Source: Bacteroidales bacterium
GTDB lineage: Bacteria > Bacteroidota > Bacteroidia > Bacteroidales > WCHB1-69
Reading direction: 5' to 3'
DNA length: 64,000 nucleotides
NCBI GenBank assembly: GCA_017554325.1
Contig: JAFZIP010000002.1
Location: 1-64,000 of the forward strand
Numbering within the stretch: position 1 is the stretch's first letter; each line of letters starts with the position of its first letter. The notes beneath the pieces were generated by a model. The model searched no databases. It saw only the letters and a list, made by a program, of their open reading frames with translations, and was not told where the DNA came from. Position numbers and translations under genes: made by a program. Of this stretch, positions 23,293 to 48,987 are shown piece after piece.

Positions 23293-23374
23293 GCCCGGAT
23301 GGCGGAAGTGGTAGACGCGCACGTTTCAGGTGCGTGTGCCGAAAGGCGTGCAGGTTCAAGTCCTGTTCCGGGCA
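23293..23374 (+). tRNA. tRNA-Leu (anticodon CAG)
   Basis: The acceptor arms GCCCGGA and TCCGGGC (23367-23373) pair, with discriminator A and no encoded CCA. The long variable arm (class II) and the D-arm GCGGAAGTGGTAGACGC are typical of tRNA-Leu. The anticodon stem is CACGT/GCGTG around loop TTCAGGT, giving CAG. The T-arm is GGTTCAAGTCC. Its last 15 bases are part of the integration repeat, so the 3' end is now supplied by the mobile element. Confidence 0.97.
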
Positions 23375-23436
23375 CTGAAGGATTTTGCGAGTATCTGTAA
23401 CACAGAGAATTGCAAAATCCTTTTTCTTTTATATTC
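23360..23436. repeat. attL: 77-bp tRNA-end direct repeat, copy 1
   Basis: It covers the last 15 bases of tRNA-Leu and the terminator-like hairpin behind it (AAGGATTTTGC with GCAAAATCCTT, then a T-run). It is identical over 77 bp to 46478-46554 and differs at five positions from 48917-48987. A tRNA 3' end repeated in direct orientation is the classic product of tyrosine-recombinase integration. Confidence 0.92.
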
Positions 23437-23527: not shown

Positions 23528-24895
23528 TTAGAACAGCCCATCTACGGCTGCACTTGCCACACTTTCTGCATATTCGTCCAACGATAGTTTTACATATTTG
23601 AAGAACATAGCTTCTGTCTTGTGGCCGCTTACACTCATCATCTGTGGAATCGTAAACTTTTTGGATAGATACATATTGGTAATGCATGACCGTCTTGCCG
23701 TATGGCTTGCAACCAATTCCCATCTTGGTTTTAATGGATAACCTTGTTCATCGTATTCATATAACACTTTCCCTTTCTTTTGGGCATTTGACTCGGCTCT
23801 TTTCTCTTTTAATGTCAATATGGTTCTTTCCTTCTTTTGAAGACTTGGAACAGATTCCGACAGATTCTTACAGATTTCTTTGATAGTCCGATTGAGGTTC
23901 TGATCCCATATCTTGGGAACATTGTAATCATATTTCTTCAATAATACTTCCAACCTGTCGTCCATAATGGGAACGACCACGACTTTGGCGGTTTTCTCTT
24001 GTTTAAGTCTGATTACTTTTGTACCATTATGTGTAAAACCAATATTTGCCTTTTTAATTCTACTATAATCTGAAAATCTCATTCCGGTAAAGCAACCAAT
24101 GAGAAAAACATCTCTAACTTGTTCTTGAAAACCGTTCAATGGCATTTCATACAATGCCGACAATTCTTCCTTTGTTAGATATATCTTCTTCGCTTTGTCA
24201 TCCTCTGTGATTTTTGGGCTCCTCAATAGACTGCAAGCGATATGGTTGGTGTGAAGACCTTGCCTCTCTGCAGCACCAATCAGTGTTTTGAAGAGACTGA
24301 TATGTTTATCAAGGGTGTATTTCATATAACCTAAACTTTCCAAATAGGAAATATACCTATCCGCTAATGCTTCGTTTATGTTGTCCCATTCAAAAGGCAT
24401 GATTTTGTAAAAATCCAAAAATACTCGTCTGAACTGTTGCCAATTTTTAATGGATTCCTTGGCATATTTCCCCTTTGTCGAAGTCCTGATGGTACCGTTT
24501 TCTATCCCATGGACATGCTCAATGACAAAGTTTTTAATGTTCGTTTTCTTATTATACTCAATGTCTTTTTTCAGAGCTTCGGCGCGTTTCAGCCCCTCTC
24601 TCTTATCTGCGAGTACGACATTTTCAATAACTTCATCAAGGTTGTCCTTGGTCAGTCTATGATGTCTTCTCATATCTGTGATGGCATCTTCGATCAAGGC
24701 AATTTTCTTGCTAATACCTTTCTTGTTGAGATAATTTTTCTGTTTTCTCTCGGACTTTGATACTTCATTCCACTCTGCGGCGTCAACCGTCATTAGCAGA
24801 TTGCACCAATAGGCAGATCCCCCAATTTTCAATCGGACATAAAGAGGGTGTTCGCCGTCAGTCTTCTCGGTTCTTAATACTAATTTCATTAACAT
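23528..24895 (-). CDS. Tyrosine recombinase (integrase) of element A
   Basis: The 455-residue protein has an N-terminal arm-binding/SAM-like region (about 1-230) and a C-terminal catalytic domain. Catalytic residues seen are Arg273 (FTGMRFSDYSR), His398 and Arg401 (HTARRSC), His425 (SGHKT) and Tyr434 (FFKYVK); the beta-hairpin lysine is probably Lys298 or Lys301. All active-site positions are intact, so it should be functional. It is the Bacteroides conjugative-element type of integrase by layout. Its 3' end lies about 90 bp from attL and its start overlaps the excisionase-like gene by 7 bp. Confidence 0.95.
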   Translation of the reverse strand: MLMKLVLRTEKTDGEHPLYVRLKIGGSAYWCNLLMTVDAAEWNEVSKSERKQKNYLNKKGISKKIALIEDAITDMRRHHRLTKDNLDEVIENVVLADKREGLKRAEALKKDIEYNKKTNIKNFVIEHVHGIENGTIRTSTKGKYAKESIKNWQQFRRVFLDFYKIMPFEWDNINEALADRYISYLESLGYMKYTLDKHISLFKTLIGAAERQGLHTNHIACSLLRSPKITEDDKAKKIYLTKEELSALYEMPLNGFQEQVRDVFLIGCFTGMRFSDYSRIKKANIGFTHNGTKVIRLKQEKTAKVVVVPIMDDRLEVLLKKYDYNVPKIWDQNLNRTIKEICKNLSESVPSLQKKERTILTLKEKRAESNAQKKGKVLYEYDEQGYPLKPRWELVASHTARRSCITNMYLSKKFTIPQMMSVSGHKTEAMFFKYVKLSLDEYAESVASAAVDGLF

Positions 24896-25518: not shown

Positions 25519-26160
25519 TTAGGCGATATCCACGAACTTTCTCTTAATTCTCTGAACGGTACTGATGCCCACACCTTCGTTTTTGGCAATCATCCTGATT
25601 GGGTATCCCTTTCGTAATTGCTTGATTACTCCGGCATATTCTTCTTGCAGTTTCTCGTCTGGTTTCTTATAGCCGACCTTACGACCGACCTTGCCGCCTT
25701 CGGCTACATACTTTTCCTTGCCGCTATTCAATCTGAACTTTATATTTTCCCTCTCCATCTGAGCACAGGTACCAAGCACGGCGATGAAGATGGTCAGAAA
25801 CGGGTGTTCCTTGCCATCGGCGTTGAAGATTGACAACTGCTCTTTCTGGAAATAGACATTGAGATGGTGTTCCTTACAGCGCTGAACGTTCGCCAGCACA
25901 TCATCAACATTACGACCGAGGCGGGAAAGTTCAGAGATGAGAAGCGTGTTAATGTCGTTGCTGAAACAGTAGTCAAGGCATTCCGTCAGGACGGGACGAT
26001 CCTTGGTCTTCTTTGCACCGCTGATATGCTCTTCAAATGTCTTTTCTACGATAAGAGAATTGTCGATGGCATACTTCTCCAAATCTCTAATTTGTCTTGT
26101 GGTGTCCTGACGATCTCCAATTGAAGACACCCTTGCATAAATGGCTGCTTTCATATTCAT
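25519..26160 (-). CDS. Serine recombinase (resolvase/invertase family)
   Basis: The 213-residue protein is a full small serine recombinase. The catalytic Ser12 is in AAIYARVSS, and the domain has ISELSRLGRNVDDVL, FLTIFIAVLGTCAQMERE and the C-terminal HTH GYPIRMIAKNEGVGISTVQRI. It resembles Pin/Hin or Tn3-type resolvases rather than large serine integrases. In element A it could resolve dimers or multimers or invert a segment. TTGAACACA repeats directly upstream (26191-26246) are a candidate binding site. No inverted pair flanking a switchable promoter was found. Confidence 0.92.
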   Translation of the reverse strand: MNMKAAIYARVSSIGDRQDTTRQIRDLEKYAIDNSLIVEKTFEEHISGAKKTKDRPVLTECLDYCFSNDINTLLISELSRLGRNVDDVLANVQRCKEHHLNVYFQKEQLSIFNADGKEHPFLTIFIAVLGTCAQMERENIKFRLNSGKEKYVAEGGKVGRKVGYKKPDEKLQEEYAGVIKQLRKGYPIRMIAKNEGVGISTVQRIKRKFVDIA

Positions 26161-31210: not shown

Positions 31211-31241
31211 TTGCTATTTAAAAACTAATTATGTATTTTTG
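31211..31241 (+). promoter_or_regulatory. Strong promoter before the putative RNA gene
   Basis: TTG (31211-31213) and TATTTTTG (31234-31241) are 20 bp apart, a near-ideal Bacteroidetes promoter. There is no start codon of a plausible gene within 350 bp downstream, so it most likely drives the structured RNA or a long leader. Confidence 0.75.
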
Positions 31242-31247
31242 CCCTGT

Positions 31248-31510
31248 CGTTCTAGCCAAATCCCCAAAAGGGCTGCGGGTGGGCGACAGACATATAAAAA
31301 GGCGTTGAGTCAACGTCTTATCTGCGGCGTACAGAATCTGGTACATTCTACTTCTTCCGCACGGTAAGGCAATGGCCAATGCCCATGGTTGTGTATATTA
31401 TCGTATATACATACAGCGTGGGCTTCGGCATTGCTTATCCTCGGAAGATGGGCAGTACCAGAGCCTTGTACGCGGGATGAGCGATGATTTCAGATTCCCG
31501 CGCTTTTTTT
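31248..31510 (+). ncRNA. Putative structured RNA of about 260 nt
   Basis: It lies between a strong promoter and an intrinsic terminator (CGCGGGA 31471-31477 with TCCCGCG 31496-31502, then seven T). Hairpins in order: CTGTCG/CGACAG (31244-31289); GGCGTT/AACGTC (31301-31317); TGCGG/CCGCA enclosing AGAAT/ATTCT (31323-31361); a long stem of 31369-31387 with 31417-31434 (about 16 pairs, one bulge), topped by TGTATAT/ATATACA; and the terminator. It does not show the conserved cores of RNase P RNA, tmRNA or SRP RNA. It may be an independent RNA of the element or a terminating leader of the sigma operon that starts 98 bp later. The exact 5' end is estimated. Confidence 0.6.
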
Positions 31511-31608
31511 ATGTACTTGATTTGAAACTGTATTGTCTGGAATTGGTGAATCGCCAGATATGAAATGCTGACGGCAAGCCTCTTGCCTGTTAACGATGAC
31601 ATTTTATC

Positions 31609-32178
31609 ATGGGAACCTACTCTGGCCATGCAATCTACAACGGACTTCTCCAAAATGACGAGCAGGTAATCCAATATGTTTTCTACAACCACTTTAACGC
31701 CTTGTTGCACCACAACGCCTACAAAACTTGCGGAAACAAAAACATAGATTTTGAGGACTTAATCCAGGAGCTTTATCTCTATATTAGCAAAAACAACTGG
31801 GAAAAACTGCGCAAATACAATCCTGAAATGCCGTTTGAGAACTGGTTTTCCGTAGTGTCTTATCGCTTTTTCAAAGATTTCACCGCTTCAATGATAGATT
31901 CTTCTCGTAATCTCCCTATTGAAAATATGGAAGAGCGATCTCTTTTGTTTCAACAGAATCAGATTGAAAAGATGATGGCGGAGGACATCAAGAAAGCCAT
32001 CGGAAAGGTTACACCTCCGAGAAATGCACAGATATTGAAAGCGTTGATTGTTGATGAGGAAGACCCTGCCACAGTGGCTGAACGGTTTGATGTGACCGTG
32101 GACAACCTCTACAATATCAAACGGAGAGCTCTTGCAAAACTGATTAAAGAACAGCTTCAGGAATATGTGACTAAATAG
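31609..32178 (+). CDS. Sigma-70 family (ECF-type) RNA polymerase sigma factor
   Basis: The 189-residue protein has a region 2-like part (NIDFEDLIQELYLYIS and MPFENWFSVVSYRFFKDF) and a region 4 HTH (PATVAERFDVTVDNLYNIKRRALAKL). Length and layout fit an extracytoplasmic-function sigma factor. It is followed after 6 bp by a single-pass membrane protein of anti-sigma type, then by envelope protein genes, so it probably controls this same operon. Region 2.3-2.4 is more diverged than in typical ECF factors. It lies behind the putative RNA gene, which may be part of its control. Confidence 0.85.
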   Translation: MGTYSGHAIYNGLLQNDEQVIQYVFYNHFNALLHHNAYKTCGNKNIDFEDLIQELYLYISKNNWEKLRKYNPEMPFENWFSVVSYRFFKDFTASMIDSSRNLPIENMEERSLLFQQNQIEKMMAEDIKKAIGKVTPPRNAQILKALIVDEEDPATVAERFDVTVDNLYNIKRRALAKLIKEQLQEYVTK

Positions 32179-32184
32179 AAAGCT

Positions 32185-32940
32185 ATGGCGGATAAACAAC
32201 AAATATCAGACGAAATGCTTGCCAAATATATGAGCGGCATGGCCACTCCCGAAGAGGAAGAGGCTGTTCTCGCTTATTTGAGCGAAAACGAGGAGAATCT
32301 GGAAGATTTCAAAAATATGGGCGAGGCGGTGATGTTGAATGATTTCGCCTCAAAGAAAGAAACAAAAAGCCGGCAACGATTCACCCGCTACCTCTATGCG
32401 GCAGCAGCTATCGCTCTTTTAGTCATTGTTTGTCTGGTTGCCATAAACCGCAATCCCAATCAGAACGATCAGTTTGCACAACAATCCCCAAATAAAGAAA
32501 CTACAGACACAACAGTTGTTCAATCCACAAACAACATTAAGGAACCTACAAACTCGGAGGCACAATCTCAAATCAGCACTTCAGAGCGGATGCCCAGCAC
32601 GATGGAACCGAAACATTATGCCGACAGTTCACACAAGTCCAACTATGCCAACATGGTATATCCGACAAAGAAACGCACCATGATTTCAAAAGAAAAGAAG
32701 AATGTAAACTTCCGTTGGAATACAGATGCTGTGGGTGTTCATTTGAGCGTGAGATCCGATGATGGGAAATGGGTAAAAGATATGCAACTTGCTAAAGAGA
32801 AATACTTTACAGTTTCTTTGCCGGAAAATGTGGATACGCTGATGTGGCATGTGGTGTTTACATACGACGATGGTACCTCGTCAGAAGAAAGCGGAATGAT
32901 TATGCGTTGGGATATGGGACTAAAGCTTAATGAAAAATAA
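32185..32940 (+). CDS. Putative anti-sigma membrane protein
   Basis: The 251-residue protein has an N-terminal acidic cytoplasmic part (1-65; SDEMLAKYMSGMATPEEEEAV), as in Bacteroidetes anti-sigma proteins, one membrane helix (about 69-87) and a periplasmic part. The latter begins with a low-complexity Asn/Gln/Thr/Ser stretch and ends with a probable beta domain (NVNFRWNTDAVGVHLSVRSD, DTLMWHVVFTYDDGTSSEES). Pairing with the sigma gene 6 bp upstream is the main support for the role. No zinc-binding HxxxCxxC motif is visible. Confidence 0.65.
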   Translation: MADKQQISDEMLAKYMSGMATPEEEEAVLAYLSENEENLEDFKNMGEAVMLNDFASKKETKSRQRFTRYLYAAAAIALLVIVCLVAINRNPNQNDQFAQQSPNKETTDTTVVQSTNNIKEPTNSEAQSQISTSERMPSTMEPKHYADSSHKSNYANMVYPTKKRTMISKEKKNVNFRWNTDAVGVHLSVRSDDGKWVKDMQLAKEKYFTVSLPENVDTLMWHVVFTYDDGTSSEESGMIMRWDMGLKLNEK

Positions 32941-33002
32941 AAATTCAACAATGATGATAGATTGACCCTGCATATCTCCTATTTCAGGTTAAAAAGCAAA
33001 AG

Positions 33003-34514
33003 ATGATGAAAAAATATATTGGCATATTAGTGATAGTTCTCCTTCCTTTGTTGGCATGGTCGCAACAGGATGACGACTGGAACAACTTTCTCCAACGCCG
33101 CAATTTCAATGAGTGGAAGCAGCAGAGAAATGCCAGCTTCAAAGCCTATAAGGATTCTGTCAACCGTGAGTTTGCCAAAGCGATGGAAAAACGATGGGAA
33201 GAATTTCAGGTGTTTACGGGACAAAGACGGCCCATAAAACCCGAACCCGAACAACTGCCTGTTGCTATCCATGATACTGTGGCCAAAGAACCCGTTAGTT
33301 TGCCAGTGGATCAGATCATTCCCACTCCCGAAGCTCGTCCCGTTCCACCCACTGAAAATGAATATGATAACTATGCCGACAGTGCAACCCAAACTACATA
33401 TCGTGATGTGGATGTAAACTTCTATATGCACACCATCAAATTTGAGGTTCCTGTTTCTGGTGAAACTATGGTATTGGGTGGAATTTCCGAACGGGCCGTT
33501 GCTAAATTGTGGTCCGATTTGTCAGAAAACGGTTTTGAGAAATGTGTAATCCAACTGAAAGAAAAGTCAAGAGAATACCATTTGAACGATTGGGCAATAT
33601 ATGATATGATAACCGCCGTGGCCGCTGAAACATTCCCCAAACGGTATGCTGAACAAACCGTGTTTGTGGTATGGCTGGCCAATCAACTCGGCATGGACGC
33701 CAAAGTGGGCAGAACTGGCAACCAATTGTTGGTCCTGCTGTCGGCCAAAACAACCCTGTATGCTGTATCGTATGTGCGTTGCAATAACGAGACCTACTAT
33801 ATTTTCAGTTGCTATCCGACTGAATCTCAAGAACAATCTTCAATCAGTACCTATCCGGTGACTTTTCCTACCCCGACATACCCGCTGGATATGAATATTG
33901 ATGAACCAATTCATTTTCTCCGTCAGCCCTCATCCGTTACCTATCGCTCTGATTTCTGGGGTGATGTGCTGCCCTTTCAGGTCAACCAAAACGCTATTGA
34001 CTTCTACAGCCGATACCCTCAAGTGGATATAGGGATTTATGCCAATGCCGAAATGTCGGAAGAACTGAAAATATGGGCCGAACGGCAAATGAAACCGTTC
34101 CTTGATGAATTGGATGAATATGAGGCCGTCAATGTATTGCTGTTTTATGTGCAAACTGAATTTGACTATGCAACAGATATTCAGCAGTTTGGTTATGAAA
34201 AACCTTTCTTTTGCGAAGAAAACTTCTACTATGCCAAAAACGATTGTGAGGATCGCGCCATTCTGTTTGCATATCTGATTCGCAATCTGGTGGGTGCGCG
34301 CATCGTGCTGTTGGATTATCCTGACCACATCGCCACGGCAGTGGCCTTTGAGGATGACAGCGAGATAAAAGGCGACTACTATCTGATAGACGGAAGAAAA
34401 TATTTCGTGTGCGACCCCACATACATAGGCGCGAACATCGGCGAAACCATGCCTCAATATCGCACCCAACGGGCAAATGTGATTTTGCTCAAACATCAGA
34501 ATAACAAACAATAG
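33003..34514 (+). CDS. Secreted transglutaminase-like protein
   Basis: The 503-residue protein has a signal peptide (about 1-20, ending AWSQQ). Residues about 30-200 are Gln/Arg/Glu-rich and then Pro-rich. The C-terminal part has the Cys-His-Asp triad of the transglutaminase-like/cysteine protease fold: Cys415 (KNDCEDRA), His442 (YPDHIATAV) and Asp471 (FVCDPTYIGAN). It could cross-link or cleave peptides in the periplasm; members of this fold do either. It sits in the sigma/anti-sigma operon before two lipoprotein-type genes. Met-Met at the start leaves two possible first residues. Confidence 0.78.
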   Translation: MMKKYIGILVIVLLPLLAWSQQDDDWNNFLQRRNFNEWKQQRNASFKAYKDSVNREFAKAMEKRWEEFQVFTGQRRPIKPEPEQLPVAIHDTVAKEPVSLPVDQIIPTPEARPVPPTENEYDNYADSATQTTYRDVDVNFYMHTIKFEVPVSGETMVLGGISERAVAKLWSDLSENGFEKCVIQLKEKSREYHLNDWAIYDMITAVAAETFPKRYAEQTVFVVWLANQLGMDAKVGRTGNQLLVLLSAKTTLYAVSYVRCNNETYYIFSCYPTESQEQSSISTYPVTFPTPTYPLDMNIDEPIHFLRQPSSVTYRSDFWGDVLPFQVNQNAIDFYSRYPQVDIGIYANAEMSEELKIWAERQMKPFLDELDEYEAVNVLLFYVQTEFDYATDIQQFGYEKPFFCEENFYYAKNDCEDRAILFAYLIRNLVGARIVLLDYPDHIATAVAFEDDSEIKGDYYLIDGRKYFVCDPTYIGANIGETMPQYRTQRANVILLKHQNNKQ

Positions 34515-34538
34515 TAATAACAATAAAAACAACCGATT

Positions 34539-35120
34539 ATGAAAAAAGTTTCTTTAGTAATGATGATTATCGCAGCGGCTTTGGCCTTTGCATCTTGTAA
34601 ATCCAGCAAACAAGTAGTCCAGACACCTCCTCCGGGAAGGACCGAAATAGAACTCCCCTGTGTGGACGAGTCAATGGACAACGATGAGTATTTCCGTGCT
34701 ATGGGTACTGCCACCAACATGAATATGCAGAATGCCCGTTCTGCCGCTTTTGATGCAGCCAAGAGTATGCTGAACAAACGCCTGGGTGGCTTTATCACAG
34801 GATTGTCCACTGACTATTCCCGTACCGTGGCCGGAGATGCCCAGATGGAAAAAGTGCAGCGTATGATGGAGGGCGAATTCTATCAGGTTGTGGAAAGAAT
34901 GCTGAACGATGCCGCCAAGACTTGTGAGAAAATGTACCAAAATCAAACGGGCAATTACGAATCCTTCATTGCCATTCAAGTTTCCAAGAAGGAATTGGTG
35001 AACAAAATGGCCGATCGCCTTTCCGACAACCAAGAATTGGAAATTGAATTCAACCGCGACCAATTCCGCAAGTTTGCTGAAAAGAAAATGAAGGAACTCC
35101 AAGATATGCAGAACCGCTAA
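34539..35120 (+). CDS. LPP20-like lipoprotein
   Basis: The 193-residue protein has a lipoprotein signal with lipobox FASC (Cys20) and a C-terminal coiled-coil tail (EFNRDQFRKFAEKKMKELQD). The central part, FRAMGTATNMNMQNARSAAFDAAKSML, matches the LPP20 family pattern of a beta strand followed by a helix rich in Ala. It is probably anchored to the outer membrane facing the periplasm. It lies 1 bp before the next gene, which has a related N-terminal domain, so the two products may interact. Confidence 0.75.
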   Translation: MKKVSLVMMIIAAALAFASCKSSKQVVQTPPPGRTEIELPCVDESMDNDEYFRAMGTATNMNMQNARSAAFDAAKSMLNKRLGGFITGLSTDYSRTVAGDAQMEKVQRMMEGEFYQVVERMLNDAAKTCEKMYQNQTGNYESFIAIQVSKKELVNKMADRLSDNQELEIEFNRDQFRKFAEKKMKELQDMQNR

Positions 35121-35121
35121 T

Positions 35122-35949
35122 ATGATGAAAAGAACTGCCATTCTTACGCTTGTGCTTTGTTTGTTCAGCGTGATGCAGGCACAGGATTTGCCGGCATGGG
35201 TAACAAAACTGCCCAAAGCCGGCAATGGCACCTATATGTATGTGAAAGAATCCGCTGTGGGAAACACCGAAAACGAAGCCCGTAACCAGGCCATCTCTCT
35301 GGTGTTCCAAACCACTGCCAACCGATTGGGACAGGCGGTATCATCTGCAGCCATTTATGAAGCCGTGCAACGGGGAACCGATCTGCAAGTGGTTGCACAG
35401 GAGTTTAAAATCCCCATTAACAAGGTTTGTGAACACAAGGAGTTACTCAAAGACGGAAAAGTCCGAGTATATGTGCTTTGCCAAGTGGCACAAGCCGGAA
35501 ATATAACTCCCGTATGGGACGATTTTCGGGGCTGCGAAGAGCGTAAACAGTACAAAGACGGTGTGGCTCTTGTGGAATCCATTTTCATTCCGGGATTGGG
35601 ACAGATGAGCAAACGGCATTATGGCGAAGGTGCTGTTACTTTGGTGGGTGAAGTGTTGTTGGTAAGTGCCGGTTTTGGAACCTATTTTGTGGCCAGAGAA
35701 GAACTCAACATCATGCGGACACCCAATATTTCCTACGAACAGTTTTCGCAAGCATACAAAACATACAACACGATGCGCACCACAGGTTATGTGGTCTGGG
35801 GCGCTGCCGCAGCTTTTTACATTTACAATCTTTGCAGGGCATATACATTGCAACCCAAATACAAGAACTCCCTTTCGGTGCATCCCGCCATTGTGCCGGT
35901 TAACCACAACACCGCCTACGGCATCGGTATTACCTATCATATCCAATAA
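35122..35949 (+). CDS. LPP20-like domain plus membrane domain protein
   Basis: The 275-residue protein has a signal peptide (about 1-20, MQAQD), then an LPP20-like domain (about 22-130; MYVKESAVGNTENEARNQAI). It ends in a region with hydrophobic segments, ESIFIPGLGQMSKRHYGEGA (about 152-171) and VVWGAAAAFYIYNLCRAY, which resembles the DUF5683-type membrane part where PGLGQ precedes two helices. It begins 1 bp after the LPP20-like lipoprotein. The fusion of a periplasmic and a membrane module suggests it links the lipoprotein system to a membrane. Function unknown. Confidence 0.7.
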   Translation: MMKRTAILTLVLCLFSVMQAQDLPAWVTKLPKAGNGTYMYVKESAVGNTENEARNQAISLVFQTTANRLGQAVSSAAIYEAVQRGTDLQVVAQEFKIPINKVCEHKELLKDGKVRVYVLCQVAQAGNITPVWDDFRGCEERKQYKDGVALVESIFIPGLGQMSKRHYGEGAVTLVGEVLLVSAGFGTYFVAREELNIMRTPNISYEQFSQAYKTYNTMRTTGYVVWGAAAAFYIYNLCRAYTLQPKYKNSLSVHPAIVPVNHNTAYGIGITYHIQ

Positions 35950-35964
35950 TCCACACACAATAAT

Positions 35965-37212
35965 ATGAAAAAAAATCTGCCATTGCTACTCTGCATACTT
36001 TCCGTCTTGCTGACAGGATGTATCAAGAATTTGGAAAAAGAAGGCATATTTATGACAACCAAATGCCACGGGATGCTGATAGAGCAGCGTACTAACCAGC
36101 CTGTATGCGGTATGCGGATCATGCTCACCAACGGGGATAAAATTCCTGTGTATGCAGTCTCTTCTATGGATGGTTCCTTTGAGATTGAGGTGACCGCCGA
36201 GCAAGTGAGCCAGAAGTACTATTTGCAGATTACAGCAGACTCTCTATATGAAGAAAAGCAGGTCTCATTGCAGGAAGTGGGCTATGGCAAACAGAACTTT
36301 GATTTAGGCACAATATATATTGTTGGACCGGATGTGCCGGTGGTAACCACGGCGGCAGTGACAGACATTGATGCGGTTTCGGCACATGGAGGTGGAGAAG
36401 TGCTTGATGGCGGTAAATCTTCTGTTGGTTCCAGAGGATTGTGTTGGAGCACCCATCAGTATCCCACAATCTCGGATGCCCATACTGTAAATGGAGATGG
36501 ATTAGGACTGTTTCAGGGTGAAATGACGGGATTGCAAGTGGGTACAGTGTATTATGTGCGGGCATACGCCACCAACGGGGTGGGGACAGGATACGGAGAA
36601 CAGAGAAGTTTTACCACCTTGAGCGGTTTGCCAACCGTAAATACCTGTGTTTTGAGCGGCATACAGCCCACCTCTGCGGTATGTAGTGGTACTGTTGTGG
36701 CGGATGGCGGTTTTGCCGTAACGGCCCGGGGTGTTTGCTGGAGCACAGTTCCGCAACCCACCGTAGCCAATGCTCACACCACTAACGGTGCAGGATTGGG
36801 CGATTTTATTGGCAACTTGACAGGATTACAACCCAGCACTACTTATTATGTACGGGCGTATGCCACCAATGCAAACGGGACAGCGTATGGTGAACAGCGG
36901 TTGCTGATCACGGCTACGGGATTGCCGGTGGTGACAACTGCACAGGTAACGAATATTGCAGGAGGCACGGCCACTTGCGGAGGTGTGGTACAAAGCGATG
37001 GGGGTTTTACGGTGACGGCGCGTGGCGTTTGCTACAGTTCCACACCCAATCCCACATTATCTGGCCCACACACCTCCGACGGTGCAGGGTTGGGCTCTTT
37101 TGTAAGCCAGCTAACGGGCTTGACTCACGGTGTGACTTATTATGTGCGTGCCTACGCCACCAATGGGGTTGGATCAGTGTATGGGGAGGAAAAGGTGTTT
37201 GTGGGAGAATAA
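35965..37212 (+). CDS. Lipoprotein with three Fn3-like repeats
   Basis: The 415-residue protein has a lipoprotein signal with lipobox LTGC (Cys19). A carboxypeptidase-regulatory-like module follows (about 30-115; SSMDGSFEIEV). Then come three repeats of about 95 residues (about 123-218, 219-315, 316-412), each with GLCWS/GVCWS/GVCYS and ending YYVRAYATN plus YGE. Repeats 2 and 3 are the closest, suggesting recent duplication. The repeats resemble Bacteroidetes fibronectin-type surface modules. It is the last gene of the sigma operon (15 bp after the previous gene) and probably lies at the cell surface. Confidence 0.78.
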   Translation: MKKNLPLLLCILSVLLTGCIKNLEKEGIFMTTKCHGMLIEQRTNQPVCGMRIMLTNGDKIPVYAVSSMDGSFEIEVTAEQVSQKYYLQITADSLYEEKQVSLQEVGYGKQNFDLGTIYIVGPDVPVVTTAAVTDIDAVSAHGGGEVLDGGKSSVGSRGLCWSTHQYPTISDAHTVNGDGLGLFQGEMTGLQVGTVYYVRAYATNGVGTGYGEQRSFTTLSGLPTVNTCVLSGIQPTSAVCSGTVVADGGFAVTARGVCWSTVPQPTVANAHTTNGAGLGDFIGNLTGLQPSTTYYVRAYATNANGTAYGEQRLLITATGLPVVTTAQVTNIAGGTATCGGVVQSDGGFTVTARGVCYSSTPNPTLSGPHTSDGAGLGSFVSQLTGLTHGVTYYVRAYATNGVGSVYGEEKVFVGE

Positions 37213-38164: not shown

Positions 38165-39130
38165 ATGCGGCAGAAATTCTTTAACTGGACATATATTTAC
38201 GAAAACGGTAGATATGATATTATTCCTGATAGGAATATTGATAGGCCGAAAACCTTTTACAAGTATTATGCGTTAAAAGATACTTCAGTGGACGCGTTAA
38301 CCCACACCTACATCTACGCCACGCATCCACGACAACTTAATGACCTGTTTGATTGTAATCCCAATATCTTGGATTTTGATAATGTAAAGGCTGTTCGTGA
38401 TGCATTAAATTGTTCTCGTTTTGCTCAAATGAGTGACGAAGAGATTTTTACAGATGACTATAGGACATTAGCCCAAATGACCTTTACGACTCTTATCTAC
38501 AAGAATTTAGGAATCTTTTCTATGGCGAAAAAGCCAGACAATCCTCTGATGTGGGCATATTACACCAACAATTGTGGCTTTTGTGTGGAATACGACCTTT
38601 CACAATTTGGATTTAAACATCATGGTCCATTCCCAATTAATTATTGTGATGTGTCTGAACCAATTCGGATGAGTCAGATTCGTGATGCTCATTTAGCGAT
38701 GTTAGCGCAAACTAATATTAAACAGCCATATTGGAAACATGAAGATGAGTGGCGTTTGTTAGTGGAGTCACCAGACGATGTAAACCTGACATGTTACGGG
38801 ATAAAAGACTATGAACTGTTTGGCGGATATGATCGCAAGTTTTCCATACCTGTTGGATCAATAAAACGAGTTGTGTTAGGAATGTCCTTTTTTGACTTTA
38901 CTGAACGGAAATCTTCTTTAAATGATCTTGCCAAAACAAATAAATGTATGTTTCAGTTAAAAGAAACAAGCAATAAGAAACTGAAAAAACAAATTTTGGA
39001 TTTTTTGAGTATGCATAAAATCAGAGTTGATTATACTTTTGTGATGAATACCAATACGATATCATCAATATCAATGATAATTAATAGAAAAAACGAAAAT
39101 CAATATGAAGGAACTTATTGTGACAAATAA
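38165..39130 (+). CDS. DUF2971 family protein
   Basis: The 321-residue protein carries the family hallmarks TFYKYYALKD, YIYATHPRQLNDLFDCNP, GIFSMAKKPDNPLMWAYYTN and YWKHEDEWRLLVE. DUF2971 proteins are common in accessory DNA of gut and other bacteria and have no settled function; some occur in defence-like settings. It is cytoplasmic. It overlaps the start of the next large gene by 26 bp in another frame and follows the RES-like gene after 71 bp. Confidence 0.75.
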   Translation: MRQKFFNWTYIYENGRYDIIPDRNIDRPKTFYKYYALKDTSVDALTHTYIYATHPRQLNDLFDCNPNILDFDNVKAVRDALNCSRFAQMSDEEIFTDDYRTLAQMTFTTLIYKNLGIFSMAKKPDNPLMWAYYTNNCGFCVEYDLSQFGFKHHGPFPINYCDVSEPIRMSQIRDAHLAMLAQTNIKQPYWKHEDEWRLLVESPDDVNLTCYGIKDYELFGGYDRKFSIPVGSIKRVVLGMSFFDFTERKSSLNDLAKTNKCMFQLKETSNKKLKKQILDFLSMHKIRVDYTFVMNTNTISSISMIINRKNENQYEGTYCDK

Positions 39131-42100
39131 CAATTGGACAAGAAATTTTATATTGTTGTTTACTTTGGTCTTTGTTATTGTAAATGATATTTTTTCATTT
39201 AATATTACAATAGACGGAAAAATCTGGTATTTTAGGATAATTAATTCAACAGAAGTGTCAGTAGTTTACCAGAATTATGGTCAGTCAGGTTCTTCTTCGA
39301 GTTATAATCCCTCCAACAATCGTCTTTCTGGGGTTCATACAATTCCAGAGAGTGTTACATATGGGGGAGTTGTATATTCTGTGGTTGAAATTCAAGATCA
39401 CGCTTTTTACGGTCTTTACTTATCTGGGACATTTATTATTCCGAACTCAATTAGAAAAATTGGGGGGCAGGCGTTTGGGAGTACCGGTATAGACACACTT
39501 ATCATAGGAGATAATGTGATACTACTTGGGGAAAAACTGTTTTTGCGTGATAATTATGTTGATCCTTTCAGCGGTAACTCTAGTGTTCCTGAAAATACAT
39601 CTCTAAAATATTGTTATATTGGTTGTGAAAACACAGCACAATGGGGAGGCAATCCCTTTGCAAAGTGTACTGGTTTAAACACAGTTTTTTTTAATGCAAA
39701 AAAATACAATGGCAGCTTCAGTTCCTTAAATGTGCAACATCTTATTATTGGCGATAGCGTCAATATCATACCAGCTTCTGCTTTTAAAGATTGTGGTTTA
39801 ATAGGCAAACTAAGTATACCTAATAATGTTGATAGTATTTTAGAAAATGCATTTTCCAATTGTCCTATTGATACTTTAGTGTTAGGAGATTCTATATGTT
39901 TTATTGGAGCAAATGCTTTTAAAAATTGCACTCATATAAAAGGTGCATTAGTGTTACCAAACAAGTTAGAATCCATACAAAGCAATGCTTTTTTTGGTTG
40001 TTCTTCCATTGAATCTATTGTATCCAATGAAACACTTCCTTTTATCGGAGAGTCAGCCTTCCAAAACTGCACCGCTGTGACATCTTTAATATTAGGAGAT
40101 TCAATAGAAGACATTGGGGATTTTGCTTTTAAAAATTGTAGTCAAATTATGGGATATTTGAATTTTCCAGGCTCCATAGAAACTATAGGAACACAAGCAT
40201 TTTCAAATTGCGATAATATTATTGGAATCCGTATCAATGATGCGGTTGTTGTGGTTGGTGAAAGTGCCTTTCAAGATTGTGATCGGTTAGTAATGGTGGA
40301 TTTAGGAGATAGTGCAACATCAATCGGAGAAAGTGCATTCCAGAATTGTTTCCGATTGAACAGTATGCAAATGGGCAATGCCGTTACTTCTATTGGCGAT
40401 AATGCATTCAACGGTTGCGTAAGATTACCCTTCCCCACTTTGTCATCATCGCTGGTGTCCATTGGGACTTCGGCCTTTCAAGGGTGTAGTGTGGTCCAAG
40501 GAAATCTTACATTTCCATCAAATATCTCCACAATTGGTAATAATGCCTTTGCCCAATGTGGAAATATCACTTCCCTAACTATGAAATCAGCCACACCTCC
40601 TACAATATTTGCAAACACTTTTTCAGGCATTAGTACAAGTATACCTGTGTATGTTCCTTGTGGCTGTGTTTTAAACTACTATGTCACCAATTATTGGGAG
40701 AACTTTTCAAATATATTGGAAGCTCAACCTTACGAAATCACAACATCTGTTAATGAAAATCTTATGGGTGTGGCACAAGTTACCACCGGTCCAACCTGTG
40801 CTAATCATTCGGCTGTAATAACAGCCTCGGCCAATTCGGGGTTCCATTTTGTTCGATGGAGCGATGGGAATAGCATTAACCCACGCTTGGTATATCTCAC
40901 ACAAGACACCTCTTTTACGGCCATATTTGCTGTCAATAACATCTATATTACCGTGCATAGTTCGGATTCGGTAAAAGGAACGGTAGAGGGTAGCGGCGTT
41001 TACTCTTATAACGGACTCGCCGTGTTGTCGGCCACCGCTAATGCCACCTACCATTTTTTGCGTTGGAACGATGGCAACACGGACAACCCTCGTTATGTAT
41101 TTGCCACGCAAGATTCCTCTTTCACCGCCATCTTCGTTTCCAACGCCTCGTATATTACCGTAGGCAACTACAACCCCGAGATGGGAACCGTGAGCGGCGG
41201 CGGTTTGTACTACTATATGCAGCAGATTTCCATCATGGCCATTCCGAATTACGGATACCATTTCTTCCAATGGAACGATGGCAATATGCAAAACCCGAGA
41301 CCTATCATCGTGAATTGCGATACATCTTTCATGGCCTATTTCGCTCCCAATATTTACTCCATCGCCGTCAATAGCAACAATACCACCATGGGTACGGTTA
41401 CGGGAAGCGGAAACTACAATTACAATATGTTCATCTCCATTACGGCAACAGCCAATTACGGTTATCATTTCACTCAATGGAATGATGGAAACACCAACAA
41501 TCCCAGGTCATTGACCGTTACCTGCGATTCGGCCTTTACCGCCCAATTTGCCGCCAATACCTATCAAATCACAGTCACGCCCAACGATCCGTTAATGGGT
41601 GGTGCGTATGGTTCGGGCACATACACCTATAATTCGCAGACCACTATTTCCGCATCCCCAACATACGGTTATCATTTCGTGCAGTGGAACGATGGTAGCA
41701 CCGAGAATCCCCGAACGATTTCTGTAACCCATAATGCACAATATGAGGCACAGTTTGCCGTGAACTTTTATACTATCAATGTCGCGAGCAACAATCCGGC
41801 CATCGGTACAGCGTCCGGAGGTGGCAACTATAGTTACAACTCCATTATCAATCTGGTGGCCACGCCCAACTATGGTTATCACTTCACTCAATGGAGCGAT
41901 GGAAATACAGACAATCCGAGAACGGTCACCGTAATGCAAAACGCCACTTATACAGCTCAATTCGCCATCAACACCTATACGGTTTCTGTAGGTCAGAACA
42001 ATGCTTCCATGGGAGTGGTATCTGGTAGCGGCAACTACATCTACAACACCCTTGCCACTATTTCAGCCACACCATATTACGGTTACCATTTCACTCAATG

Positions 42101-43664
42101 GAACGACGGCAACACAGAGAATCCTCGTACAGTGTTGGTCTCCCAGAATATGACCTTTACCGCTCAATTTGATGTTAACACCTACAATTTATCTGTTATC
42201 AGCAACAATATCACGGCCGGCTATACCACTGGAAGCGGCACATACAATTACAATGACATTGTAGCCATAACGGCAATCCCCGCTCCGCATTATCATTTTG
42301 TGGCATGGAGCGATAGTGTGATGGAGAATCCTCGCAATGTGATTATTACAAAAGACACGCTTTATACAGCCCTTTTCACCATTGATGCCCACACTGTCTC
42401 GGCCACTCCGAACAATTCCGTCATGGGATCGGTTCAGGGTGCCGGTTCATACGATTACGGAACCAATGTGGCTTTGCGCGCTATTCCGAATTATGGATAT
42501 CATTTCGTGCAGTGGAATGATGGTGTCACCCAGAATCCACGGCATTTTACGCTTTTCACAGACACCTCGTTCGTGGCCCAATTTGGGGTGAATACCTATA
42601 CTGCCACCATATTGAGCGGAGATACTTTGATGGGTAGTGTGTCAAACTCGGGTACTTACAATTATTTGACGCAGTTGACTTTGACGGCAACGCCTGTCTT
42701 TGGTTATCATTTTGATCATTGGAGCGACGGCAGCACCGATAATCCTCGCACTCTGACACTGACACGGGATACGGTAATCATGGCCTATTTCGCCATCAAT
42801 ATGTATCAAGTTGATTTGGCCGTGAATGATTCTACTCTGGGGAATGTATCAGGAGCGGGAACATACCCATATTTGACTCAAGTGATTGTTTCAGCATCTG
42901 CCAACGAACATTGTCATTTCGTTCAGTGGAGTGACGGTAGCACTTCCAATCCGCGTCAATTCTCCATCATCGGAGATGTTTCCTTGACTGCTGAATTTGC
43001 AGAAGATGACAAATTCACCATACAGGTGTTCAGTTCCGATGAGAATATGGGCTATGTGTCCGTTGGTGGCGAATATTATGTGGGTACTCAAATCAGCATA
43101 TCTGCATTTCCGTTTGAACACTATCAATTCCTGCATTGGTCGGATGGTGTGACGGATAATCCCCGGACGGTTACAGTACTTGAGAACGCTGTATTTACAG
43201 CGGTTTTTGCTCCTGTGATGTATGATATTACGGTGCTTTCATCCAATGAAACAATGGGCAATGTGTACGGTGGTGGTAGTTTTGCATACGGCACCACCAT
43301 TGAAATCTCCGCCACGCCCAATGAGGGTTATCATTTTGAATGTTGGAGCGACGGGGACAGCACACCAGTGCGATCGGTAATCGTTGACGGCAACCAGACA
43401 TACATTGCTAATTTTGCCGAAGGTGTTTCCATAGATGAATGGAACGCGGAAACAGTCAAAGTGTTTCCCAATCCCACAACTGACAATGTTTTCATCACAC
43501 ACCCGGAAGTAGAGAGAGTTGAAGTTTTGGGCATTTCAGGTCAAATTGTGAAATACAACCAAGGCATGAACCAAATTTCAATAGGTGATTTACCTCCTGG
43601 AATCTATGTTTTACGAGTGTATATCGGAAACCAAGAATTTCATAGGCGGATTATAAAACAATAA
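39105..43664 (+). CDS. Giant LRR and B-repeat surface protein with T9SS type A sorting domain
   Basis: The 1519-residue protein starts with a signal peptide (about 1-33, with a longer polar N-region than usual). Residues about 60-540 are BspA-like leucine-rich repeats (LRR_5 type; repeated AF-NC- and IG-AF patterns). Residues about 543-1441 hold 13 tandem repeats of about 69 residues resembling divergent InlB B-repeats, each with YGYHFxQWxDGxTxNPR and ending TAQFA. The last 75 residues form a type A T9SS sorting domain (VFPNPTTDNVFIT, GIYVLRV). It is probably a surface adhesin. The LRR part is AT-richer than the repeat part, suggesting mosaic origin. Confidence 0.9.
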   Translation: MKELIVTNNNWTRNFILLFTLVFVIVNDIFSFNITIDGKIWYFRIINSTEVSVVYQNYGQSGSSSSYNPSNNRLSGVHTIPESVTYGGVVYSVVEIQDHAFYGLYLSGTFIIPNSIRKIGGQAFGSTGIDTLIIGDNVILLGEKLFLRDNYVDPFSGNSSVPENTSLKYCYIGCENTAQWGGNPFAKCTGLNTVFFNAKKYNGSFSSLNVQHLIIGDSVNIIPASAFKDCGLIGKLSIPNNVDSILENAFSNCPIDTLVLGDSICFIGANAFKNCTHIKGALVLPNKLESIQSNAFFGCSSIESIVSNETLPFIGESAFQNCTAVTSLILGDSIEDIGDFAFKNCSQIMGYLNFPGSIETIGTQAFSNCDNIIGIRINDAVVVVGESAFQDCDRLVMVDLGDSATSIGESAFQNCFRLNSMQMGNAVTSIGDNAFNGCVRLPFPTLSSSLVSIGTSAFQGCSVVQGNLTFPSNISTIGNNAFAQCGNITSLTMKSATPPTIFANTFSGISTSIPVYVPCGCVLNYYVTNYWENFSNILEAQPYEITTSVNENLMGVAQVTTGPTCANHSAVITASANSGFHFVRWSDGNSINPRLVYLTQDTSFTAIFAVNNIYITVHSSDSVKGTVEGSGVYSYNGLAVLSATANATYHFLRWNDGNTDNPRYVFATQDSSFTAIFVSNASYITVGNYNPEMGTVSGGGLYYYMQQISIMAIPNYGYHFFQWNDGNMQNPRPIIVNCDTSFMAYFAPNIYSIAVNSNNTTMGTVTGSGNYNYNMFISITATANYGYHFTQWNDGNTNNPRSLTVTCDSAFTAQFAANTYQITVTPNDPLMGGAYGSGTYTYNSQTTISASPTYGYHFVQWNDGSTENPRTISVTHNAQYEAQFAVNFYTINVASNNPAIGTASGGGNYSYNSIINLVATPNYGYHFTQWSDGNTDNPRTVTVMQNATYTAQFAINTYTVSVGQNNASMGVVSGSGNYIYNTLATISATPYYGYHFTQWNDGNTENPRTVLVSQNMTFTAQFDVNTYNLSVISNNITAGYTTGSGTYNYNDIVAITAIPAPHYHFVAWSDSVMENPRNVIITKDTLYTALFTIDAHTVSATPNNSVMGSVQGAGSYDYGTNVALRAIPNYGYHFVQWNDGVTQNPRHFTLFTDTSFVAQFGVNTYTATILSGDTLMGSVSNSGTYNYLTQLTLTATPVFGYHFDHWSDGSTDNPRTLTLTRDTVIMAYFAINMYQVDLAVNDSTLGNVSGAGTYPYLTQVIVSASANEHCHFVQWSDGSTSNPRQFSIIGDVSLTAEFAEDDKFTIQVFSSDENMGYVSVGGEYYVGTQISISAFPFEHYQFLHWSDGVTDNPRTVTVLENAVFTAVFAPVMYDITVLSSNETMGNVYGGGSFAYGTTIEISATPNEGYHFECWSDGDSTPVRSVIVDGNQTYIANFAEGVSIDEWNAETVKVFPNPTTDNVFITHPEVERVEVLGISGQIVKYNQGMNQISIGDLPPGIYVLRVYIGNQEFHRRIIKQ

Positions 43665-46351: not shown

Positions 46352-46554
46352 TTCTTGGTCACCTTTTGGTCACCATTTTGGCGATTCCTTGGTTTATGAT
46401 GGTATTATTGATGTGTTGGAATGTCCGTAACATCACGAATTACAAGTATATACATCCAAGGAGCCGTAAAGCCAGCGGTCCTGTTCCGGGCACTGAAGGA
46501 TTTTGCGAGTATCTGTAACACAGAGAATTGCAAAATCCTTTTTCTTTTATATTC
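46352..46554. repeat. Element A right end: arm sites plus attR core
   Basis: The arm-like box pair TTGGTCACC x2 lies at 46355-46374 and the 77-bp core at 46478-46554. The 126 bp before the core align with 48791-48916 at roughly 90 percent by eye. The core is identical to attL at 23360-23436, so A and the flanking core recombined recently or remain interchangeable. Confidence 0.85.
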
Positions 46555-48793: not shown

Positions 48794-48987
48794 TTGGTCA
48801 CCTTTTGGTCACCATTTTGACGATTCCTTGGTTTATGATGGTAATATTGATGTGTTGGAATATCCGTAATATCACGAATTACAAGTAAATAAAAACAAGG
48901 AGCCGTAAAGCCAGCAGTCCTGTTCCGGGCACTGAAGGATTTTGCAAGTATTTGTAATACAGAGAAATGCAAAATTCTTTTTCTTTT
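48791..48987. repeat. Right end of element B plus third att core
   Basis: Arm-like boxes lie at 48794-48813 and the core (71 bp recognisable) at 48917-48987. The core differs from copies 1 and 2 at five positions but keeps the terminator stem. This is the probable ancestral tRNA-Leu 3' flank of the chromosome. Confidence 0.82.

Follow-up and report, generated by a model that had tools for sequence, protein, structure and literature searches.

The locus and its predicted fold

The window analysed here is a whole stretch of 64,000 nucleotides of Bacteroidales DNA (contig JAFZIP010000002.1). It contains a 23-kb integrative island (23293-46554) with a 77-bp exact direct repeat (23360-23436 and 46478-46554), the first copy of which begins in the 3' end of a tRNA-Leu gene. 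The RNA described below lies on this island, upstream of a gene for an ECF sigma-70-like factor. The features, in window coordinates, are as follows.

23293-23375, tRNA-Leu gene at the island edge
23528-24895, tyrosine recombinase gene, adjoining the tRNA-Leu gene
25519-26160, resolvase gene
31234-31514, + strand, full extent of the window copy, comprising promoter, stable RNA and terminator
31234-31241, + strand, promoter -7 box TATTTTTG (Bacteroidetes consensus TAnnTTTG)
31245-31288, + strand, 5' hairpin P0 (UGUCG...CGACA), from the fold; z -1.4, weak by itself
31290-31514, + strand, core RNA according to covariance model R1, with ends ACAUAUAAAAAGGCGU and CGCGCUUUUUUUAUGU
31299-31319, + strand, P1 hairpin AAGGCGUU..AACGUCUU, model helix 1
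31327-31473, + strand, long rod made up of P2-P4, the A:B helix and an apical variable stem (model helices 3-8), with unpaired core GAAUCUCGCAAAUUC / GGCAAUGCGAGAGCC and GCGUGGGCUUC
31327-31332/31468-31473, + strand, rod helix P2
31337-31343/31456-31462, + strand, rod helix P3 (helix 4 of alignment A3)
31352-31359/31442-31449, + strand, rod helix P4
31363-31374, + strand, strand A GGTAAGGCAATG, partner of B within the rod
31429-31440, + strand, strand B CATTGCTTATCC (also given as CAUUGCUUAUCC), partner of A or C
31472-31510, + strand, intrinsic terminator, GCGGGA (31472-31477) and UCCCGC (31496-31501) followed by seven U (31504-31510)
31475-31486, + strand, strand C GGATGAGCGATG, within the terminator loop
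31536-31558, + strand, post-terminator hairpin with loop GGUGAAUC (consensus GGGARUC)
31609-32178, + strand, first gene, ECF sigma-70-like factor of 189 residues (NCBIfam sigma70-ECF, E = 4e-13)
32185-37212, + strand, likely rest of the operon, its extent judged from spacing

The likely rest of the operon encodes a membrane anti-sigma-like protein, secreted proteins, lipoproteins and a fibronectin-type III protein. Elsewhere on the island (39105-43664), a surface protein of 1519 residues is encoded which has many repeats, of the BspA leucine-rich type by eye, and a T9SS type A sorting tail (Por_Secre_tail, E = 4.8e-11). An additional, 30-bp copy of the direct repeat at 48916 suggests a second, adjacent insertion that comprises the AAA/DUF4143 gene at 47.3-48.7 kb.

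Judging from the position of the -7 box, transcription of the window copy would start at about 31246. The calculated minimum free energy of 31246-31512 is -112.9 kcal/mol, compared to -78.0 +/- 4.9 in dinucleotide shuffles (z = -7.15), and none of 200 shuffles folded equally well. The predicted shape is a single long rod hairpin with a short 5' hairpin ahead of it. This differs from the chain of at least five hairpins proposed in the initial annotation, as the 31369/31417 stem named there is the upper part of the one long rod. The surrounding elements were described correctly, i.e. the near-consensus promoter, the clean terminator, the absence of a plausible gene (ORF 31372-31563 overlaps the conserved structure and has no gene signs) and the 98 bp before the sigma operon, of which the first ORF begins at 31609.

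In the window copy, strands B and C can form 12 contiguous pairs. The optimum calculated for the finished RNA is not the terminator form but a closed rod in which the U tract is paired. The three competing folds, at -116.6 kcal/mol (closed rod), -107.6 kcal/mol (terminator with A:B) and -103.6 kcal/mol (B:C), are at most 13 kcal/mol apart, which is the kind of energy spread that a switch needs.

Distribution of the RNA family

A BLASTN search of relatives (n=100) identified copies in 25 genomes, several per genome, and a first alignment of 32 of these copies showed compensatory change on both sides in 19 of 56 consensus pairs. Covariance model R1, which scores the window copy at 255 bits (E ~5e-63), matched 41 of 104 genomes of the family, the other 63 being without a match, and 65 of 393 genomes of the order, representing 39 of its 206 genera. 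Genomes with matches carry 1-11 copies, the maximum being reached when more candidates were scored. In a class-wide sample of 395 genomes, seven had matches, all of them in the same order, and the single match outside the order was 45 nt long and scored 27 bits. Database records containing a conserved 22-mer are from Bacteroidales or unclassified Bacteroidetes, mostly from rumen and gut; one Paraburkholderia record with the exact 22-mer (L207) was rejected as a copy, since R1 finds nothing there. The RNA family is essentially confined to Bacteroidales. The suggestion that it is element-borne applies to the copy on the 23-kb island, but apart from this copy the family is chromosomal, with members across the order. 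No copy was found in the plasmid and phage records searched, and one contig labelled viral carries the RNA.

This contig (IMG/VR, 85.7 kb; L300:384-8125) has the RNA before an operon of which the first gene encodes a divergent EF-Tu-like GTPase (GTP_EFTU, E = 5e-40), followed by genes for a 648-residue protein, Hsp70-like by eye but without a Pfam match, and for a HerA-like ATPase. It looks like an accessory conflict operon.

Several variants were observed. Some genomes (G374, G427, G074, G095, G308, G336) have several shorter and weaker matches to the full model, of 175-190 nt, which may represent another subfamily that lacks the long rod tip. In many copies, including L049, L051, L054, L056 and L059, a REP-like palindrome GTAGAGACGC..GCGTCTCTAC is inserted in the rod tip, showing that the tip tolerates insertions. 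Just upstream of the RNA, genes on the opposite strand recur at L031, L037, L052, L053, L057 and L066, and these either start with ...GEIILYQPD..LEVRMEEETVWLTQAQMA.. (RhuM-like by eye) or are ORF6N-like.

At the gathering score, the 4227 families of Rfam 15 gave only a tRNA match in the whole window. At E <= 10, the 601-nt stretch around the RNA gave only chance-level matches to miRNA, sRNA and viral-pseudoknot families, far below their cut-offs. We found no description of the RNA family in the open literature, a scope that excludes subscription journals and preprints, nor in the text of three surveys of candidate RNAs from 2010, 2021 and 2024 (PMC2864571, PMC8632094, PMC11109978).

Promoter, gene position and target genes

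The copies share a common layout, which consists of a promoter, a 5' hairpin, a rod with variable tip, a terminator, usually a further hairpin, and the start of an operon; P0-like hairpins 5' of the RNA are visible in many homologues. The motif TAnnTTTG was found 20-90 nt upstream in 90 of 99 homologues, compared to 4.4 expected from shuffles, while in the 90 nt after the core a motif scan alone gave 3 of 99, compared to 4.7 expected. A same-strand ORF starts within 150 nt downstream in 87 of 96 cases, at a median distance of 67 nt. With a promoter motif upstream and none beyond chance after the terminator, the operon appears to depend on read-through. These observations strongly favour one of the options considered in the initial annotation, a conditional terminator leader, as homologues are found in the same orientation before operons unrelated to each other, have no second promoter motif and harbour the covarying, mutually exclusive helices described below.

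First genes were secreted-looking in 37 of 54 cases, against 40 of 137 control ORFs (Fisher p = 1.2e-6), where secretion was called by a simple N-terminal rule and the controls were ORFs upstream of the RNA at the same loci. Pfam matches among the targets include BspA-type LRR, Fib_succ_major, type IX sorting tails, LPP20 and PEGA, and also caspase-like proteins, a protein kinase, restriction-modification proteins and helicases. A sigma-like gene does follow the window copy, as had been pointed out, but this link is incidental, as most copies precede other genes. Comparison of the target genes by Pfam revealed no common pathway that would name a ligand.

Covariation and mutually exclusive helices

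The covariance search suggested in the initial annotation did reveal covariation. Alignment A3 contains 99 copies fitted to the structure of the covariance model, and this structure is paired in 96.1% of its cells, compared to 33.9-46.9% after the partners were shifted by 1-3 columns. Two-sided compensatory changes occur in 42 of the 56 pairs, and 944 cells carry a two-sided change, against 266 in shuffles. P1 is paired in 94.6% of cells with two-sided changes in 6 of 9 pairs, rod helices 3-8 are paired in 90-99.9% with many two-sided changes, and the terminator stem is paired in 94.2% of homologous cells with two-sided changes in 5 of 6 pairs. The stretch encodes a genuine RNA of about 270 nt that has been conserved in evolution.

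As A3 was fitted to the model, helices outside the model provide a cleaner test. B:C is absent from the model used for alignment, and is paired in 93.9% of cells, with a two-sided change in 72 cells against 26 in shuffles; for A:B, which is part of the rod, the values are 94.4%, and 94 cells against 32. The helices that share strand B, A:B and B:C, are therefore mutually exclusive and each is conserved. Such conservation of helices that exclude each other around a terminator is the hallmark of an attenuator.

Several helices compete for strand C. Weaker alternatives pair the P1 strands with C (87.5%) or with the segment before the terminator arm (71.6%). The 5' strand of P1 has the U tract as an alternative partner, and the closing helix ACAUAUAAAAAGGCGU:CGCGCUUUUUUUAUGU covers the U tract and extends beyond it; this helix is paired in 82.8% of cells and its complementarity exceeds that in all permutations, although permutation counts here and below are not true probabilities, as the homologues are related. 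There is moderate support for this helix shutting the rod over the U tract.

Helix 4 of A3 (31337-31343/31456-31462) occurs in a few block-swapped forms, UCUCGCA, CUUCGCA, UCUGGUA and UCUAGCA, with matching partners, and is flanked by nearly invariant unpaired bases. The best candidates for a sensing site are the barely changing unpaired parts around UCUCGCA/UGCGAGA and around GCGUGGGCUUC.

A hairpin beyond the terminator

In many copies, the terminator is followed at about 20-50 nt by a hairpin whose loop, GGGARUC, is complementary to the terminator 3' arm GAUUCCC (31493-31499 in the window copy). In the window copy the loop pairing is imperfect, with 5 contiguous pairs (GAUUC/GAAUC). Among 45 copies in which the arm differs from GAUUCCC the complementarity is kept, with a mean score of 14.8 compared to 12.3 +/- 0.36 when downstream stretches were exchanged between loci, and none of 2000 such permutations scored as high. 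Clear arm/loop pairs are GGCUCC/GGAGCC (L121), GACACCC/GGGUGUC (L151), GAUACCC/GGGUGUC (L050, L102) and CCGCUC/GAGCGG (L119); a minority, e.g. L106, L115, L124 and L128, have no convincing loop partner. The hairpin past the terminator and the terminator 3' arm coevolve. As this hairpin is transcribed only once the terminator has been passed, it cannot be the cause of the initial read-through, and it may rather lock the open form or act on translation.

Proposed mechanism and alternative explanations

We propose that this undescribed Bacteroidales leader RNA is probably a cis-acting transcription attenuator which controls read-through into the operon. Transcription would start some 45-50 nt before the core, and the nascent RNA would fold the 5' hairpin, P1 and the long rod with A:B. 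As long as the rod is closed, the G-rich arm and the C-rich arm behind it would form the terminator, and transcription would stop before the operon. A signal, for which a metabolite, a protein or an RNA is a candidate, would shift the fold such that C is paired with B or with the P1 region; the two arms of the terminator would then separate and RNA polymerase would read into the operon, making the form with paired C the putative ON state. Once released, the terminator 3' arm of the read-through RNA could pair with the loop of the hairpin before the first gene, which would lock the open form or tune translation. Ligand binding by the leader is putative. The targets are as diverse as BspA LRR, Fib_succ_major, caspase-like, LPP20 and restriction-modification proteins. 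On a wider view, which we consider evenly balanced, the leaders form an order-wide class in which one common signal releases up to a dozen accessory operons per genome through a three-strand switch and a post-terminator lock. These operons would be unrelated to each other and encode surface, secreted and conflict proteins. Leader-peptide attenuation was rejected, as the leader alignment has no conserved start codon.

The long, diverse accessory surface operons that follow the RNA are also the usual targets of processive antitermination, exemplified by put RNA, EAR and the LoaP/UpxY systems. The rod, or a protein recruited by it, would then modify the polymerase so that terminators are ignored along the long operon, and the very high conservation of the unpaired rod parts does suggest a bound partner. 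However, the conserved switching of B to C is more in line with a local decision than with a passive recruiting site. Moreover, a NusG paralogue is not required, as a single NusG-domain protein is encoded by G013 and G374, genomes that carry 6-11 copies, and by the window's own genome. We regard processive antitermination as unlikely.

Alternatively, an independent small RNA, 6S-like or otherwise trans-acting, could end at the terminator, the operon having its own promoter. This is improbable, as a same-strand ORF follows at a median distance of 67 nt and the interval lacks a promoter motif, and the post-terminator hairpin coevolves with the terminator. The RNA has its own promoter motif and clean terminator, and its rod resembles 6S RNA in outline; a 6S-like RNA was also among the options of the initial annotation. 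The 6S model (RF00013) nevertheless matched neither window nor genome, whereas the control was matched in 5 genomes; 6S-Flavo (RF01685) gave no match in either, a weak negative since its control was matched nowhere. Furthermore, 6S RNA is a near-universal housekeeping RNA present in 1-2 copies, while the RNA family described here is multi-copy (up to 11) and found in 41 of 104 family genomes.

The closing helix, which pairs the U tract and runs past it, and the pairing of the terminator arm with a hairpin immediately ahead of the start codon are both properties of the read-through RNA. They would agree with a constitutive structured leader that controls only RNA stability or translation, the apparent terminator being a leaky part of its fold. 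Conservation of the terminator stem and the seven-U run with compensatory changes goes beyond what such a leader needs, and makes this explanation highly improbable. Finally, a MITE-like mobile repeat structured as DNA rather than RNA, to which the multiple copies, the inverted ends ACATATAAAAGGCG/CGCTTTTTTTATGT and the contig-end copies in draft genomes might point, is scarcely credible, as it predicts random orientation and copies without promoter or gene, while the actual copies are oriented toward genes between a promoter motif and a start codon, have frequent G-U pairs and compensatory changes in internal helices, and have diverged across many families of the order with their structure intact.

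We file the RNA family as a cis-acting transcription-attenuation leader that belongs to no named family. To our knowledge, few cis-acting RNA switches are known in Bacteroidales, a dominant gut order. If the attenuator reading is true, a multi-copy leader before diverse surface-protein operons would constitute a regulon-wide layer of RNA control, and identification of its signal would reveal when these bacteria alter their surface. It is uncommon for an attenuator that a terminator arm pairs with a hairpin located past the terminator, and this pairing is testable. The alignment and covariance model make a ligand search and reporter tests directly possible.

Comparison with known systems

Bacteroidales-1 RNA (RF01693; 179 model positions) is known from Bacteroidales only, has a Bacteroidetes promoter at one end and a terminator at the other, and is associated with the L20 gene. 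The new RNA is similar in its restriction to Bacteroidales and in its promoter and terminator ends; identity is not supported, as the model matched neither the window nor the genome. With 6S and 6S-Flavo RNA it has in common a long rod-like hairpin, but it differs from them in being multi-copy, linked in cis to operons and absent in most relatives.

Like the UpxY, LoaP and RfaH-type systems, the new RNA would control read-through into long accessory operons for surface proteins. It differs in being a structured RNA with a switch, and in that several many-copy genomes lack a NusG paralogue. Among genomes with the RNA, G000, G013, G345, G374, G099 and G076 each have a single NusG-domain protein. 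The T-box is comparable as an attenuator with alternative terminator and antiterminator helices before many operons; in contrast, the new RNA has no Rfam match, its targets are not amino-acid genes, and the conserved T-box sequences were not seen.

The new RNA also resembles orphan riboswitch or attenuator leaders, which likewise have their own promoter, a large conserved receptor-like domain, mutually exclusive helices, an intrinsic terminator, a same-strand operon and copies before many operons. It falls outside Rfam 15 and has no common pathway among its targets that would suggest a ligand, and it is set apart from these leaders by the strand common to rod and terminator loop and by the coevolving hairpin beyond the terminator.
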